DNA of 33,122 nt. Origin: a candidate division CPR2 bacterium GW2011_GWC2_39_35. Lineage in GTDB: Bacteria > Patescibacteriota > CPR2. The DNA lies in assembly GCA_000995065.1 (NCBI GenBank), contig LBWX01000002.1, positions 126,586 through 159,707 of the forward strand. The letters run 5' to 3'. The position numbers and the translations under genes were made by a program. This document shows positions 13,884 through 18,546 of this stretch, in pieces (the first letter of the stretch is position 1; each line of letters starts with the position of its first letter). The notes below the pieces were generated by a model, which did no database searches, was not told where the DNA came from, and saw nothing but the letters and a program-made list of their open reading frames with translations.

Positions 13884-13912
13884 TTGAAAAATCACAAATT
13901 AAATGCTAAAAT
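13884..13912 (+). promoter_or_regulatory. Promoter at the start of the unknown-gene cluster
   Basis: TTGAAA (13884-13889), a 17-base spacer and TAAAAT (13907-13912). The predicted start near 13919 gives a leader of about 60 bases that contains TACCGGA and a T6 run, features also seen in the leader at 15570-15615. Confidence 0.75.
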
Positions 13913-13977
13913 CCTTGGCAGTAATACCGGAATTGATCGCTGTTTTTTAGTCAAATAGAGGAAGGAGGGATAATCGG

Positions 13978-14451
13978 ATGAATCGCGAATTATTGCAAAG
14001 TGTTCTTAAGGAAGGAAAACTTAATAACCTACAACTTATACAGTTTGTTAATGAGGCGGTTGCGTTAGTTTCAAATGTATTCATCAGGATATTTGGATCC
14101 ATAGCTTTTGTTGAGGTGGAAATGGCAGAGATAGTAGCAGCGGCACAGGATTTTAGTTCTGGTCACGTTGACCTTTTCTTCGTGGACGAGATGAAGTCCT
14201 TTTGTCGTGAATCGAATCGACTCTACAATTATGCGACCGAATACATGACGTGGTTGAAACTCAATCCAATAACCCATAATTCTGAGCTCATATGTATGGC
14301 CGAACAGCAGGATGAAGCCATGCGAGTTTTGAGGAGCTTTGCCGTGATGTTTAGCACCCCGAATGAGGATAAGAAAGCGCGGGCACTTAATCAGGCGGCC
14401 AACTCTTGCAAACGCATCTTAAAAATTGACGAGGCTAGACAGCAAGCATGA
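13978..14451 (+). CDS. Unknown helical protein (cluster protein 1)
   Basis: A 157-residue, soluble-looking, mainly helical protein that I do not recognise. There is no signal peptide or clear membrane helix; the stretch VALVSNVFIRIFGSIAFVEVEM is hydrophobic but mixed with charges. AAGGAGGG sits nine bases before the ATG. The segment from about residue 136 (ALNQAAN...ILKIDE) resembles the C-terminal part of the next gene's product (ALQDAAN...VKLDEEHD), so the two may be distant relatives. After the TGA stop, protein-like sequence continues in the +1 frame to 14512, suggesting a frameshift or a shortened tail. Codon use and spacing look like a real gene. Confidence 0.75.
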   Translation: MNRELLQSVLKEGKLNNLQLIQFVNEAVALVSNVFIRIFGSIAFVEVEMAEIVAAAQDFSSGHVDLFFVDEMKSFCRESNRLYNYATEYMTWLKLNPITHNSELICMAEQQDEAMRVLRSFAVMFSTPNEDKKARALNQAANSCKRILKIDEARQQA

Positions 14452-14553
14452 TCTTGAAGAGCGAATCAGGAGGATCGAGATCGTTCGGGATCAGTGGGAG
14501 AAAAGAAAATAGATGATATGCAATTTGCATAGATTTGGAAGGAGATGGAGAAG

Positions 14554-15078
14554 GTGAAGCTTGAAAGTCCAATCATGCCGATCGTGAAGCTGGCTCAAGG
14601 AGGTTTGAGAGGAGGCTTTAGCGGCTTACAGGAAGCAAAAGAAGCCATCATATTACTGGCTGTCGAATCACAAAACATTTATGATCGAAATAGGCAATGG
14701 GATGAGAAACTGCCCTTTGGAGAGGCCGTGCAGTATTTTAATAACATGCTTCCCGGTCAAGTATCATCAACGGTCAAGGCCAATGAAAAGTTAGGGCCAG
14801 TATTGAAAATGTTTCTGGAGAAGTATTCTGAACTCGAGAAAGATAGGCGTCAGTACCAGCACGATCTGGAAAACTTCAAGAACAAGGAAAACTATCTGCG
14901 CGCCAAGATTGCTGTTTCGATACTTCGGCTTTTCGAGAAGGTTCTTCTTTCGTACAGTGCTACTTCTTCTTCTGAAGAACGTAATCATGCGCTGCAAGAT
15001 GCTGCTAATATCTTCATGGTAAAGCTAGACGAAGAGCATGATGTTGACAAAAGATTCAGGCAAGGCGAAGTTACTTAG
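14554..15078 (+). CDS. Unknown helical protein (cluster protein 2)
   Basis: A protein of about 174 residues of unknown function, rich in charged helices; residues 80-120 (FLEKYSELEKDRRQYQHDLENFKNKE) look like a coiled coil. I choose GTG 14554 as start because AAGGAG (14539-14544) is nine bases upstream; an ATG at 14545 is directly adjacent to that Shine-Dalgarno and less likely. The C-terminal ALQDAAN...KLDEEHDVDKR resembles the end of cluster protein 1. It appears to share a transcript with that gene (no terminator in the 100-base gap) and is followed by a large terminator. Confidence 0.72.
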   Translation: MKLESPIMPIVKLAQGGLRGGFSGLQEAKEAIILLAVESQNIYDRNRQWDEKLPFGEAVQYFNNMLPGQVSSTVKANEKLGPVLKMFLEKYSELEKDRRQYQHDLENFKNKENYLRAKIAVSILRLFEKVLLSYSATSSSEERNHALQDAANIFMVKLDEEHDVDKRFRQGEVT

Positions 15079-15155
15079 ACAGGTTTGTTGCTACGGGGTT
15101 GTGAGTAGAGTTTATGGTAAACTCACAACCCTCGTGGATAATGAACCTGTTTTTT
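15079..15155 (+). terminator. Large two-tier terminator after cluster protein 2
   Basis: An outer stem ACAGGTT (15079-15085) with AACCTGT (15144-15150) encloses a perfect GGGTTGTGAG/CTCACAACCC inner hairpin, followed by TTTTTT. It ends the first transcript of the cluster. Confidence 0.88.
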
Positions 15156-15276
15156 AATTCTCCCAAAAACTTTGAACCGCCTTCATTTCCCGAATCTAGC
15201 CTCTAAAACTGCCGTTAGGCTTTAGAACCTCCATAAAAAACTATCTATGACTGTCACTCAAGAGCAACTGGTAGGA

Positions 15277-15356
15277 GCGTGGCCATTCGGTCTTGAGCTC
15301 ATGGTCGAAGACAATCTTGTTTCGAGTTTGAGGGGATTGCTTCGTTTCTCGCAATG
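15277..15356. repeat. Repeat module, GGATTGCTTC...CTCGCAATGACG family
   Basis: It contains an exact 28-base inverted copy (15282-15309) of 8691-8718, then GGGGATTGCTTCG and CTCGCAATGACGG, the modules of the repeats at 4231 and 22132. The preceding 15156-15276 shows no gene or clear structure. Confidence 0.6.
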
Positions 15357-15400
15357 ACGGCTCGAAAAACGTTTTTCAGCGGTCTCTCTCCAGAAAACTA

Positions 15401-15429
15401 TTGACAGGTTTTATTTAAGTTGCTATAAT
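15401..15429 (+). promoter_or_regulatory. Perfect consensus promoter for the second cluster transcript
   Basis: TTGACA (15401-15406), exactly 17 bases, TATAAT (15424-15429). The predicted start near 15436 lies about 470 bases before the next gene, so a long non-coding leader or a separate small RNA is made. Confidence 0.92.
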
Positions 15430-15435
15430 ATCAAG

Positions 15436-15616
15436 CGTTAACAATTTAAATTGTATTTAAGCGAAAGCGTTATTACCCGTGACTGAATATGTGGTCACCT
15501 TTGAGGTCATGGGGAGCTAGTGGTGAAACCGGTCGTTATTTTTATTTTTTTGAGTAAACTATGAAAATACATGGATCGTTTTGTATTACCGGATCAGCTT
15601 TCGCTGGTCTTTTTTG
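15436..15616 (+). ncRNA. Candidate structured leader RNA or small RNA, about 180 nt
   Basis: From the consensus promoter to a clear terminator (GATCAGC, TTTC, GCTGGTC, then TTTTTT, about 15592-15615) there is no convincing open frame. Visible pairings include GTGAC/GTCAC near 15479-15500. The element GAAACCGGT occurs at about 15524 and again at about 15694 in the next structured domain. It matches no riboswitch, 6S, SRP, tmRNA or RNase P motif that I can recognise. It could be an attenuated leader of the genes from 15910 on, or an independent small RNA. Confidence 0.5.
15592..15616 (+). terminator. Intrinsic terminator in the 15436 leader
   Basis: A seven-base stem GATCAGC/GCTGGTC (one G-U pair), tetraloop TTTC and a six-base T-run. 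It lies upstream of the structural genes, as expected for attenuation or for the end of a small RNA. Confidence 0.8.
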
Positions 15617-15643
15617 TTGCTCATGGCATTAAGAAATTAATCA

Positions 15644-15767
15644 ACAAAAAGGCTGTTTAATATGACGCATCCTTACTGCTTACCGCCAGTTGCGAAACCG
15701 GTGTATTTTATACAAAGTAATTCGGTTTTGCCATTGGGCAAGAGCATGGGCTGATAAGCCTTTTTGT
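15644..15767 (+). other. Second structured RNA domain of the leader
   Basis: ACAAAAAGGCT (15644-15654) is perfectly complementary to AGCCTTTTTGT (15757-15767), closing a domain of about 120 bases. Inside, GCGAAACCG (15692-15700) pairs with CGGTTTTGC (15723-15731) around GTGTATTTTATACAAAG. GGGCTGATAAGCC followed by TTTTTG can alternatively form a small terminator using the right arm. The mutually exclusive pairings suggest a regulatory leader. Minus-strand frames here lack a ribosome site. Confidence 0.45.
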
Positions 15768-15909
15768 ACCTTAAGGAATTTCAAGCAAAAGAAGATGCCG
15801 CATGTCTTAAAATAGTCTTCTAGTGAAATATTTCTTATCCGGAATAATTTCATTTTTTTAGGCGAGGGAAACAAGATGTCGAGAATTCTGTATATGGGAG
15901 GTGAATTAC

Positions 15910-16308
15910 ATGTTTATTGGATTGGGCAGTAAAAGCAAAAGTAGAGAAATAATGCTGGTTGCCGAGGAAATAGCGGCGTTAGCAAGACTGGTTTCGGCGT
16001 TCGTAGGAGTTTTGGCACCGTATTCAAACAGCGATACTCTTAAGCGATTCGAGGCAGCACTCGCTAAACATTCCGATCATTTAAGCCTCGAAAAAGAGCT
16101 TCGTGTAAAAGTTGGATATGCGGCGCTATCTTACCATCTCAAGGCGGTAAGCAAGAGAACCGGTTATCGGGACAAGCCAAAAATTGACCTCGCGATCGAA
16201 GCCATACTATCGGTTTATCGCCTTATCTTACAGGAGAAGAAAAGCGATTTTCAAAAAGCAATAATGCATCTTCAAGGCGATATAGAGCGCTTGAGAGTCA
16301 AAGACTAA
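15910..16308 (+). CDS. Unknown helical protein (cluster protein 3)
   Basis: A 132-residue protein of unknown function, mostly alpha-helical and soluble, with a moderately hydrophobic segment (EEIAALARLVSAFVGVLAPY) near the N-terminus. I choose ATG 15910, since GGGAGGTGA (15896-15904) is at standard distance; an in-frame GTG at 15901 is inside that Shine-Dalgarno. A tiny frame at 15875-15931 (ATG after GCGAGGG; 18 codons) overlaps the start and could couple translation. It is the first gene after the structured leader. Confidence 0.75.
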   Translation: MFIGLGSKSKSREIMLVAEEIAALARLVSAFVGVLAPYSNSDTLKRFEAALAKHSDHLSLEKELRVKVGYAALSYHLKAVSKRTGYRDKPKIDLAIEAILSVYRLILQEKKSDFQKAIMHLQGDIERLRVKD

Positions 16309-16379
16309 AGAGACATGGGAAAGCATCTCGCTTGGAATTCCGGAAAAAGAAGTAAGTGTCGCAACGCGCAACTTGGCAA

Positions 16380-16426
16380 GTAAGGAGCTGAACGAATTAG
16401 TTCAAACTATTCATTCGGCTCCTTAC
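16380..16426 (+). other. Hairpin in the gap between cluster proteins 3 and 4
   Basis: GTAAGGAGCTGAACGAAT pairs with ATTCATTCGGCTCCTTAC (one wobble and one mismatch) around an 11-base loop, with possible outer pairing AGAAGT/ACTTCT. No T-run follows directly; a T7 run at about 16498-16504 follows a weaker TTCTA/TAGAA stem. It may be an RNA processing or attenuation element. Confidence 0.45.
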
Positions 16427-16555
16427 ATCACTTCTATTGGTGGAAAGATTCTATTTGCACTCTGCAAACGGCATCCTTCTACCGCTAGAAAGTAAAGTTT
16501 TTTTGGCCGGTAAGCTTGTTAACAACAAAATAAAATTAGAAAGAGGTAAAAAAGA

Positions 16556-17014
16556 ATGAAGAGTGCCACAGAATTGCTACGTGAAGCAGCGGAGCTTAAA
16601 GGAATGAATACGGAGAGGAGAATTGAGTTTTGTGCGGAAATATTGGACTTCGCCAAGGAGTTGTACGACGCAAACGGCGACTTTGCGAAAGACTTTAACC
16701 ACGCCGATGCGCCGTCAAGGGCAGTAGAAGCGTTTAGGGATAATTCAGAACTCGAAGTTCCCAATCGCAGCATCCTTGCTCTTTTAACGCATCACTTGTT
16801 CGGGTTAGGAGTTGAGATTAACGGTTCGAAGGAAGGCAGGTTGGGAAACCAGAACGCATTAGCCCTTATATCAACAGGGTTAATAGCAAACGTGCTGGTG
16901 CTTATCGGCCATCCTGAATCATTAATTAAGGAAAGGGCTATCAAAAGTGTTCAGACGGGTCTGAAAAGAGTAGTCGAAATGAAAACTGCCGAGAAAAATA
17001 CCAAACGGAGGTAA
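16556..17014 (+). CDS. Unknown helical protein (cluster protein 4)
   Basis: A 152-residue protein of unknown function, predicted helical and cytosolic. It starts MKSATELLREAAELKGMN and has a central hydrophobic helix (NALALISTGLIANVLVLIG) and a basic C-terminus (KNTKRR). GAAAGAGGT precedes the ATG. Its stop TAA lies inside the Shine-Dalgarno region of the next gene, so the two are tightly coupled. No catalytic motif is visible. Confidence 0.78.
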   Translation: MKSATELLREAAELKGMNTERRIEFCAEILDFAKELYDANGDFAKDFNHADAPSRAVEAFRDNSELEVPNRSILALLTHHLFGLGVEINGSKEGRLGNQNALALISTGLIANVLVLIGHPESLIKERAIKSVQTGLKRVVEMKTAEKNTKRR

Positions 17015-17017
17015 AAC

Positions 17018-17431
17018 ATGTTTCCTGAAGAGTATGCAGACGTTGTAGATCCGCTCATTTCCGACGAAGCAAGGCTAGATCTTGCTTTAGATATCGGCGA
17101 AGAGGCGGCTCGAATTCTAGAAGAGACCTATGGCACTCAAATACCTTGCATAGTTATGCAGGCAATAAGAGAGAATGCATATAGGGAAACAGGGGAAGAA
17201 ATCACTCTCTTTATAGAGATGCAAATCGGGTCACTACTAAGAGACGCAAGATCTGACCAATTGGGGGATCATAAACAAAGATGCTCTCGATATAGTCTAC
17301 TCATGATTATCTATTATGTTTCGAATCTGACATTAAGATCGGGAGGTTACAATAAGCTTATGATTGCGCAGATACTAGCAAACACGATTAGTACGAATTT
17401 TCAGAAAGAAAGCCTCGTGGTTATGTGCTAG
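17018..17431 (+). CDS. Unknown helical protein (cluster protein 5)
   Basis: A 137-residue protein of unknown function with an acidic N-terminus. Its segment EEAARILEETYGTQIPCIVMQAI (29-50) resembles SDRMVQIIEQVGYEMPKEIMDSV in the last protein of the cluster (residues 26-48), hinting that the two are distant paralogs. GGAGGTAA is seven bases from the ATG and overlaps the stop of the previous gene. No catalytic motif or membrane helix is evident. Confidence 0.78.
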   Translation: MFPEEYADVVDPLISDEARLDLALDIGEEAARILEETYGTQIPCIVMQAIRENAYRETGEEITLFIEMQIGSLLRDARSDQLGDHKQRCSRYSLLMIIYYVSNLTLRSGGYNKLMIAQILANTISTNFQKESLVVMC

Positions 17432-17466
17432 GAGGCGGATGCATGTTGATAGAATTATGAGGGTAG

Positions 17467-17784
17467 ATGATAAAAACTTGGAGAGGGGGTTCAGAGTTGA
17501 TTACAATCATAAATGAAGCGTTCGAGAAAAAACTCGAAGTTATGGTCACATATGTTAGTCGTGACTGGAAAAACTTACCTGCCGGGAGCGATACTAGAGA
17601 ATTAAGGAATAAATGTAACGAATTTCTAAGCCATTTCGGTCTTAACGCCGATAACTTGGAAGATGTTCTTATCTGGGCGCTAACAAGGGAAAGGGTGTCT
17701 GAATTTCCGAAGGATGAAGCCTATCTGGTATTCGCGCGCCAGCTTAAAGATTTCGGCGAAGAATGCGGAATCGATCTTGCTTAA
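17467..17784 (+). CDS. Unknown small protein (cluster protein 6)
   Basis: A 105-residue acidic, helical protein of unknown function. The start is uncertain: ATG 17467 has GAGGG only three bases away, while TTG 17497 (giving 95 residues, MITIINEAFEKK) has GAGAGGGGG at a better distance. A 25-codon frame that begins at 17439 with GGAGGCGG before it overlaps this start, echoing the small overlapping frame before cluster protein 3. No motif is recognised. Confidence 0.68.
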   Translation: MIKTWRGGSELITIINEAFEKKLEVMVTYVSRDWKNLPAGSDTRELRNKCNEFLSHFGLNADNLEDVLIWALTRERVSEFPKDEAYLVFARQLKDFGEECGIDLA

Positions 17785-17909
17785 TTTAGATTCATAAGTC
17801 TTGTTGGTTGTAGCTGCGGGATTATCGTAAGGGCATTATAGGGATGGCAAGGTACGGGAGGATGAGAAGCTTAAATGACCTGATTCATTGATGAATGGAG
17901 GTGATATGA

Positions 17910-18044
17910 ATGCGAATACCAAAAAAAGTTTTTCGATTGCGCAGCTCGACCTCATTTCGGCGCGAAACTGTCTGCTATGATCCGAAATTTGGATCAAGTA
18001 GTTTCTGGGTGACCGTCTTGCCAAAAAGAAAAAGGCGCAGCTAG
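17910..18044 (+). CDS. Possible 44-residue basic peptide
   Basis: A short frame MRIPKKVFRLRSSTSFRRE...LPKRKRRS with many Lys/Arg and no acidic stretch. It has one of the best Shine-Dalgarno sequences in the cluster (GGAGGTGA, 17897-17904) at the same spacing as its neighbours. An alternative ATG at 17906 in another frame gives only 24 residues. Its size and charge would fit a nucleic-acid-binding peptide, but this is only a possibility; it could also be a leader for the next gene. Confidence 0.4.
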   Translation: MRIPKKVFRLRSSTSFRRETVCYDPKFGSSSFWVTVLPKRKRRS

Positions 18045-18096
18045 TAAAGAAAAGGATCAAAAAATAAACTATACAGTTGGCGAGGAGGTGAAAAAG

Positions 18097-18465
18097 GTGG
18101 ATAAAGAATCAGTTCGGGTTACAAAAGATCTGCCGTGGTCAAAAGATCCAATCGGATCTTTAAAGGTGATCTCGGATAGGATGGTTCAGATCATAGAGCA
18201 AGTTGGATATGAAATGCCGAAAGAAATAATGGATTCGGTCTTTGTAAACAAGCATCATGTGAGTACGCCGATTGGTTATCCAATCGCAACAGATGCCATA
18301 GCAAAGTTACTTATGCTTTTGGGAGATCTAAAGACTCTTCAAGCATCGTCAGCCATTATGGCAACCGAAGCCCTTATTCATATCGTTGAATACTTGCAGG
18401 CGGAGAATGATGAATCGCTAAAAGATCTTATACATCTTGGCATCGAAGCTATGCAAGCGGCCTAA
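18097..18465 (+). CDS. Unknown helical protein (cluster protein 7)
   Basis: A 122-residue protein of unknown function. I start at GTG 18097 because GAGGAGG (18083-18089) lies seven bases upstream; an in-frame GTG at 18088 is part of that Shine-Dalgarno. The second half (DAIAKLLMLLGDLKTLQASSAIMATEALIHIVEYL) is amphipathic helix without a true membrane span. Residues 26-48 resemble cluster protein 5. It is the last gene before a strong terminator. Confidence 0.76.
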   Translation: MDKESVRVTKDLPWSKDPIGSLKVISDRMVQIIEQVGYEMPKEIMDSVFVNKHHVSTPIGYPIATDAIAKLLMLLGDLKTLQASSAIMATEALIHIVEYLQAENDESLKDLIHLGIEAMQAA

Positions 18466-18478
18466 CAAGGCCAAGATT

Positions 18479-18546
18479 CTGGGTGTTTAGCGGACATAAA
18501 TTTATGGTTCACTACATAAGTCCGCTAGACCCCCAGTTTTTTATTT
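18479..18546 (+). terminator. Terminator at the end of the unknown-gene cluster
   Basis: CTGGG-TGTTTAGCGGAC pairs with GTCCGCTAGACCCCCAG (18479-18536, small internal mismatches) and is followed by TTTTTTATTTT. The long stem and large loop match the style of the terminator at 15079. Confidence 0.88.

Follow-up and report, generated by a model that had tools for sequence, protein, structure and literature searches.

A lineage-specific cluster of small orphan genes in a CPR2 bacterium, largely headed by a predicted c-di-GMP-II riboswitch

Between groEL and pyk in a 33-kb stretch of DNA from candidate division CPR2 bacterium GW2011_GWC2_39_35 (the window; 33,122 nucleotides), part of the 1.12-Mb genome of an ultra-small uncultured bacterium, lie seven plus-strand open reading frames (ORFs), p1 to p7, arranged in two transcription units. 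Our sequence analyses place a class-II cyclic di-GMP (c-di-GMP-II) riboswitch at the head of unit 2 (p3-p7), between a perfect promoter and p3, which was overlooked in an earlier sequence-only reading of this DNA. Overall, we favor, with a probability of roughly 0.7, a lineage-specific two-operon insertion of genes for small cytosolic, mostly helical orphan proteins, the second operon of which is under control of a c-di-GMP-II OFF switch. The orphan cluster is real, and most of it is governed by a riboswitch class that is already known but was not expected in this host. The sequence-only reading had proposed an undescribed system with its own regulation; the regulation stands, and because it belongs to a known riboswitch class in the case of p3-p7, these genes are better viewed as part of a c-di-GMP regulon than as an anonymous system.

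A c-di-GMP-II aptamer in the leader of unit 2

The unit 2 promoter is an extended sigma-70 promoter (TTGACA-17-TATAAT with TG; positions 15401-15429, plus strand) that matches the consensus at 12 of 12 positions. Downstream of it, a scan of the window with permissive filters detected a c-di-GMP-II aptamer at 15454-15543 on the same strand (Rfam RF01786, 45.9 bits, E 6e-8). We also derived a covariance model (R1) from 17 further aptamers of Patescibacteria, from which the window copy and its closest relative had been left out; it scored the same element at 59.2 bits (E 3e-19). The source genome carries three c-di-GMP-II copies, of which the two siblings lie above the curated cut-off (71.1 and 62.4 bits), and two such switches were found in each of two sister genomes. 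The 17 other aptamers showed covariation, pseudoknot included (score 0.623 compared to 0.263 +/- 0.023 for shuffled controls). Among the seven CPR2-family aptamers, the inner helix and the pseudoknot are paired in every copy, with 91% pairing in P2 and 62% in P1. The window aptamer retains the core GGAGC...AGUGGUG(C/A)AACCGG, and a C-to-A exchange beside AACCG is offset by a G-to-U exchange in its pseudoknot partner (columns 40-71: UA in 15, GC in two). In the solved c-di-GMP-II aptamer, the ligand is contacted by A69, A70, and G73. Two features of the window copy weigh against its assignment: its 45.9 bits remain under the Rfam gathering score of 53.5, and its P1 comprises five proximal pairs, while the distal half is weakly paired.

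A second, degenerate aptamer-like element follows at 15654-15712 on the plus strand (R1, 25.0 bits; E 1.5e-6, a rough value). It has kept P1, in which 9 of 11 positions pair, and the AGUUGCGAAACCGG strand, but has neither a P2 hairpin nor the loop that forms the pseudoknot. Across 435 kb of related loci, all R1 hits of at least 23 bits, except one, lie at or beside switches found with Rfam. The exception (L038 563-671, minus strand, 26.5 bits) is a second weak aptamer-like match, located in a genome without a GGDEF match (G009). Because a weak match also stands beside a strong one in G030, and two are present in G173, tandem copies are not rare here. For the class as a whole, 59 doublets and nine triplets are described (PMC9481103).

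The window switch shares with RF01786 the P1 and P2 helices, the 3-bp inner helix, the pseudoknot, and the AACCG core, as well as the association with surface and adhesion gene control and the occurrence in tandem. It differs in its CPR2 patescibacterial host, its orphan targets, a second copy without P2, and a degenerate sole GGDEF protein in the genome. The closest aptamer, a near-identical one in genome G001 (L035/L044; L044 1886-2936), has an identical P2 5' strand and loop and the same 2-nt insertion, whereas its target is a 281-amino-acid RNase III-like protein (PF00636, 37.7 bits) and the locus holds no p3-p7. Further downstream of this RNase III homolog, a PgaC-like glycosyltransferase and a deacetylase are encoded.

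Folding predicts an OFF switch that acts by transcription termination

Downstream of the aptamer, folding identifies an expression platform consisting of a terminator (15591-15610, plus strand) that is mutually exclusive with the ligand-free pairing. The terminator segment GCUUUCGCU is perfectly complementary, over nine bases, to the 5' strand of aptamer P1, AGCGAAAGC. In the window, the terminator probability rises from 0.08 with the aptamer left free to 1.00 with the aptamer forced, and the same shift was seen for three further family switches (G001_b, 0.00 to 0.96; G000_C3, 0.00 to 0.83; G000_C1, 0.53 to 1.00). When the aptamer was shuffled, the mean free terminator probability was 0.92, and only 2% of the shuffles were as low as the observed value; because shuffling restores the terminator, the complementarity between aptamer and terminator is not a matter of chance. 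Folding in the window and in the three other family switches points in one direction, and we therefore predict that p3-p7 are switched OFF by transcription termination. Without ligand, the aptamer strands would pair with the terminator and RNA polymerase would read into p3-p7; upon binding of c-di-GMP, P1 and the pseudoknot would close, the terminator would be freed, and transcription would stop. The p3-p7 proteins would then be made only at low c-di-GMP.

This predicted direction is opposite to that of the experimentally studied class-II switches of Clostridioides difficile, which act as ON switches. A switch that likewise acts ON, or whose outcome is decided by the degenerate second element, is an alternative to which we assign a low probability. 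In C. difficile, each of the four class-II switches is of the activating kind (PMC3649979), folding is neutral in three of the family aptamers, and the unit 2 leader carries, besides the second element, a further terminator-like hairpin downstream (15748-15761, plus strand). In no family member, however, is the terminator weakened by aptamer formation, and in four of seven the opposite was observed. Two points also speak against the OFF switch itself: in three of the seven aptamers of the family the two states are not told apart by folding, and equilibrium folding omits co-transcriptional kinetics, with about 17 kcal/mol needed from ligand and pseudoknot in the window. Rfam scans revealed no group I intron.

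Switch targets in Patescibacteria and the source of the ligand

A c-di-GMP-II match was present in 20 of 381 sampled Patescibacteria genomes. Among the genes downstream are those for GGDEF proteins (G031, G263), a PilZ protein (G284), very large surface proteins, and TasA/camelysin-like proteins accompanied by signal peptidases, as well as genes for a response regulator and a family-2 glycosyltransferase and operons with amidase and lytic transglycosylase. The names of the amidase/SLT proteins in L001, of RNase III, of GGDEF in G031, and of PilZ were tested with profiles, and the others represent our reading of the sequences. These types of downstream genes support both c-di-GMP as the ligand and a regulon concerned with surface and lifestyle. 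Judging from the other switches of the phylum, the p3-p7 operon would belong to such a regulon of attached versus free life. As a weak guess, the products of this operon may be lineage-specific small proteins, possibly assembling together, that serve the unattached state at low c-di-GMP. Weighing against any such role, nothing ties p3-p7 to any activity.

The switch-controlled wall-hydrolase operons of the same CPR2 family (L028, L033, L034) and of G030 are headed by the same aptamer type as unit 2, but their products include an amidase and an SLT lytic transglycosylase (L001) together with membrane proteins rather than small soluble orphans. At L028, L033, L034, and L030, the switch-controlled wall hydrolases (amidase and SLT in L028) are accompanied by a membrane/coiled-coil protein; the operon is found repeatedly in CPR2 genomes and again outside their family, in G030, where the aptamers stand in tandem, and it resembles a lysis or wall-remodeling cassette. 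At L036, L076, L080, and L082, switches precede TasA/camelysin-like proteins, several of them with a signal peptidase, resembling a Gram-positive biofilm operon. At L031 6288-6932 (G002), a switch is followed by a gene for a 138-amino-acid orphan helical protein, similar to p3-p7 in kind and not in sequence.

In each of the three CPR2-family genomes G000, G001, and G002, a single GGDEF protein was found (L041 3871-4470, minus strand; L042 6182-6778, minus strand; L043 6078-6674, plus strand). All its catalytic motifs are degenerate: the metal-binding Asp and the NDxxGH motif are gone, and in place of GGDEF stands ETNKF or ENDKF. This degenerate protein may be a receptor or pseudo-enzyme, and its gene is conserved beside yebC and ruvC-like genes. 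No EAL protein was found in the nine genomes searched, and G284 alone yielded a PilZ protein, with none detected in the CPR2 family. It counts against c-di-GMP control of p3-p7 that no intact GGDEF protein was found in the genome; the searches did not extend to HD-GYP or other cyclases, so that a source of ligand is not proven absent. Because the sole GGDEF protein is degenerate and neither EAL nor PilZ was found in the CPR2 family, the ligand may come from a host or from an unrecognized enzyme. In its boldest form, which we regard as improbable, this idea would mean that CPR2 bacteria kept c-di-GMP riboswitches while their sole GGDEF protein decayed, that the switch reads the c-di-GMP of a host or neighbor, and that p3-p7 are new host-association proteins gated by a partner's signal.

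The CPR2 aptamer might instead sense another ligand, such as another cyclic dinucleotide. The loss of the catalytic motifs from the sole GGDEF protein of these three genomes would fit, as would G030, which has the best-scoring aptamer and yet no GGDEF match. The conserved AACCG core, next to which the C-to-A exchange is compensated in the pseudoknot, and the control of GGDEF and PilZ genes by the same aptamer type in other Patescibacteria both argue for c-di-GMP, and we consider a different ligand improbable.

A limited literature search turned up neither natural riboswitches nor gene control that depends on c-di-GMP as described features of Patescibacteria. The nearest finding of that search is that sediment-attached ultra-small genomes have more diguanylate cyclase genes (PMC9938205). 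Through the riboswitch, a defined regulon of these uncultured cells becomes accessible to in-vitro assays that need nothing but the sequence, and genes of unknown function with a possible part in attachment or release can be singled out. The lack of a recognized synthase, in turn, makes a host-derived signal directly testable.

Gene content and coding status of the cluster

Unit 1 starts from a predicted promoter at 13884-13912 (TTGAAA-17-TAAAAT with TG; 10 of 12 consensus positions) and comprises p1 (13978-14451, 157 amino acids) and p2 (14554-15078, 174 amino acids; GTG start, with ATG 14545 also open). It ends in a two-tier intrinsic terminator at about 15077-15152 (-41.9 kcal/mol). Unit 2 comprises p3 (15910-16308, 132 amino acids; basic, isoelectric point 9.7), p4 (16556-17014, 152 amino acids), p5 (17018-17431, 137 amino acids; acidic), p6 (17467-17784, 105 amino acids, or 95 from TTG 17497), and p7 (18097-18465, 122 amino acids; GTG start), and is closed by an intrinsic terminator at 18479-18536 (-32.0 kcal/mol) with a T-run behind it. 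All features are on the plus strand. The seven ORFs, the two good promoters (13884 and 15401, both predicted), and the large two-tier terminators (15079 and 18479) had been described from sequence inspection, and were borne out by ORF positions, consensus matches, and folding, respectively.

Strong Shine-Dalgarno sites, also reported earlier, were found with a match of at least five bases for six of the seven ORFs, with only four for p6. Well-spaced sites precede 13978 ATG, 14554 GTG, 15910 ATG, 16556 ATG, 17018 ATG, 17467 ATG or 17497 TTG (p6), and 18097 GTG (p7). The claim of frequent GTG or TTG starts thereby holds for p2, p7, and possibly p6, but not for p3, which starts with ATG 15910. 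In all seven ORFs, codon usage in the own frame beats the five other frames (z 2.9-5.0 against base shuffles). Synonymous codon usage of p1-p7 deviates slightly from that of core genes, and the codon signal is weaker. For a possible basic peptide between p6 and p7 (17910-18044, plus strand; 44 amino acids, good Shine-Dalgarno site), another frame outscores its own.

That p1-p7 are functionless ORFs, whether spurious or in decay, is, in our view, very unlikely. No homologs were found for the five proteins tested and the codon signal is below that of core genes, as this explanation would have it; against it stand seven consecutive ORFs that have Shine-Dalgarno sites and codon signal in their own frames, together with terminators and a switch of conserved type, as well as a single-sequence fold of p7 at fair confidence.

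No protein of the cluster belongs to a recognizable family, in agreement with the sequence-only reading: the best Pfam, NCBIfam, PHROGs, and PADLOC matches were far below the cut-offs or non-significant, where a family required a score above the curated cut-off (Pfam, NCBIfam) or significance (PHROGs, PADLOC). PHROGs returned no family for p1-p7 below E 0.05. The PADLOC defense scan of the cluster yielded only p6 against PDC-M02B (E 0.033 over 33 residues) and no recognizable anti-phage component. The view of small helical proteins without a transposase, integrase, nuclease, or toxin is likewise supported. For p1, helical structure is predicted from composition (3% glycine plus proline). AlphaFold2 (AF2) prediction from single sequences gave a five-helix bundle for p7 (predicted local distance difference test (pLDDT) 77, predicted template modeling score 0.74) and six helices for p4, an all-helical model of low confidence (pLDDT 59). 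Foldseek searches of p4 and p7 against the PDB found nothing at E <=0.001. On these models, p4 and p7 are taken as predicted soluble helical bundles.

The proposal of an expanded paralogous family is mostly unsupported. Probabilities in hhalign were at most 1.6%, and the common C-terminal pattern of p1 and p2 (p=0.05) and the common internal helix pattern of p5 and p7 (p=0.27) are within chance. Pairwise similarity was marginal for p4 and p7 alone, whose C-terminal stretches of 44 residues are alike (p=0.0017 as a single test, about 0.04 when corrected for 21 pairs), a suggestive likeness at the sequence level. Two further candidates were rejected. An RNase III remnant in p4, an idea prompted by the RNase III homolog that is the target of the nearest aptamer, found no significant match (RNase_3_N, E 0.12; Dicer fold, E 0.45). 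Matches to the N-terminal domain of seryl-tRNA synthetase (p2, E 0.007) and to GerR (E 0.003) were far below cut-off and probably reflect coiled-coil stretches.

Lineage specificity and origin of the cluster

Homolog searches in two sister genomes and a wider sample covered p2, p3, p4, p5, and p7, while p1 and p6 are orphans by family searches. No convincing homolog emerged for any of the five, which returned only self matches except for a single p2 match at E 0.03. We compared the groEL-pyk site in two same-family relatives. In candidate division CPR2 bacterium GW2011_GWC2_39_10, pyk follows groEL within about 0.7 kb and the cluster is absent; in bacterium CG2_30_37_16, no cluster is present in the available part, the contig stopping just before pyk. 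Because it is absent there in both relatives, the cluster is specific to the lineage of the window at this site. Lack of conservation in relatives had been named beforehand as evidence against the cluster. Such a lack is what we found for five proteins and the pyk-adjacent site, and it leaves the cluster lineage-specific rather than unreal.

A lineage-specific insertion between groEL and pyk could also be the remnant of a phage or mobile element, with small helical orphans resembling early genes, that had either acquired a c-di-GMP switch or brought one along. Atypical synonymous codons, tight packing, and strong Shine-Dalgarno sites would fit this origin, and c-di-GMP-I switches are present in C. 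difficile prophages (PMC3649979). However, the cluster has no integrase, transposase, or structural gene and, as noted, no PHROGs family; no relatives were found in viral contigs (p2, p5, p7) or phage records (p3), and the predicted fold of p7 has no viral structural match. We rate this origin as rather unlikely.

Two minor elements were noted in addition. A dispersed repeat, ...CHSRAGGNPGSSLCPQAFWILS..., occurs in G000 at L001 1669-1881 and L002 195-410, near two riboswitch loci. In the p3-p4 gap, a long hairpin without U tract (16380-16426, plus strand; -25.6 kcal/mol for 16375-16440) includes AAGGAG/CUCCUU.

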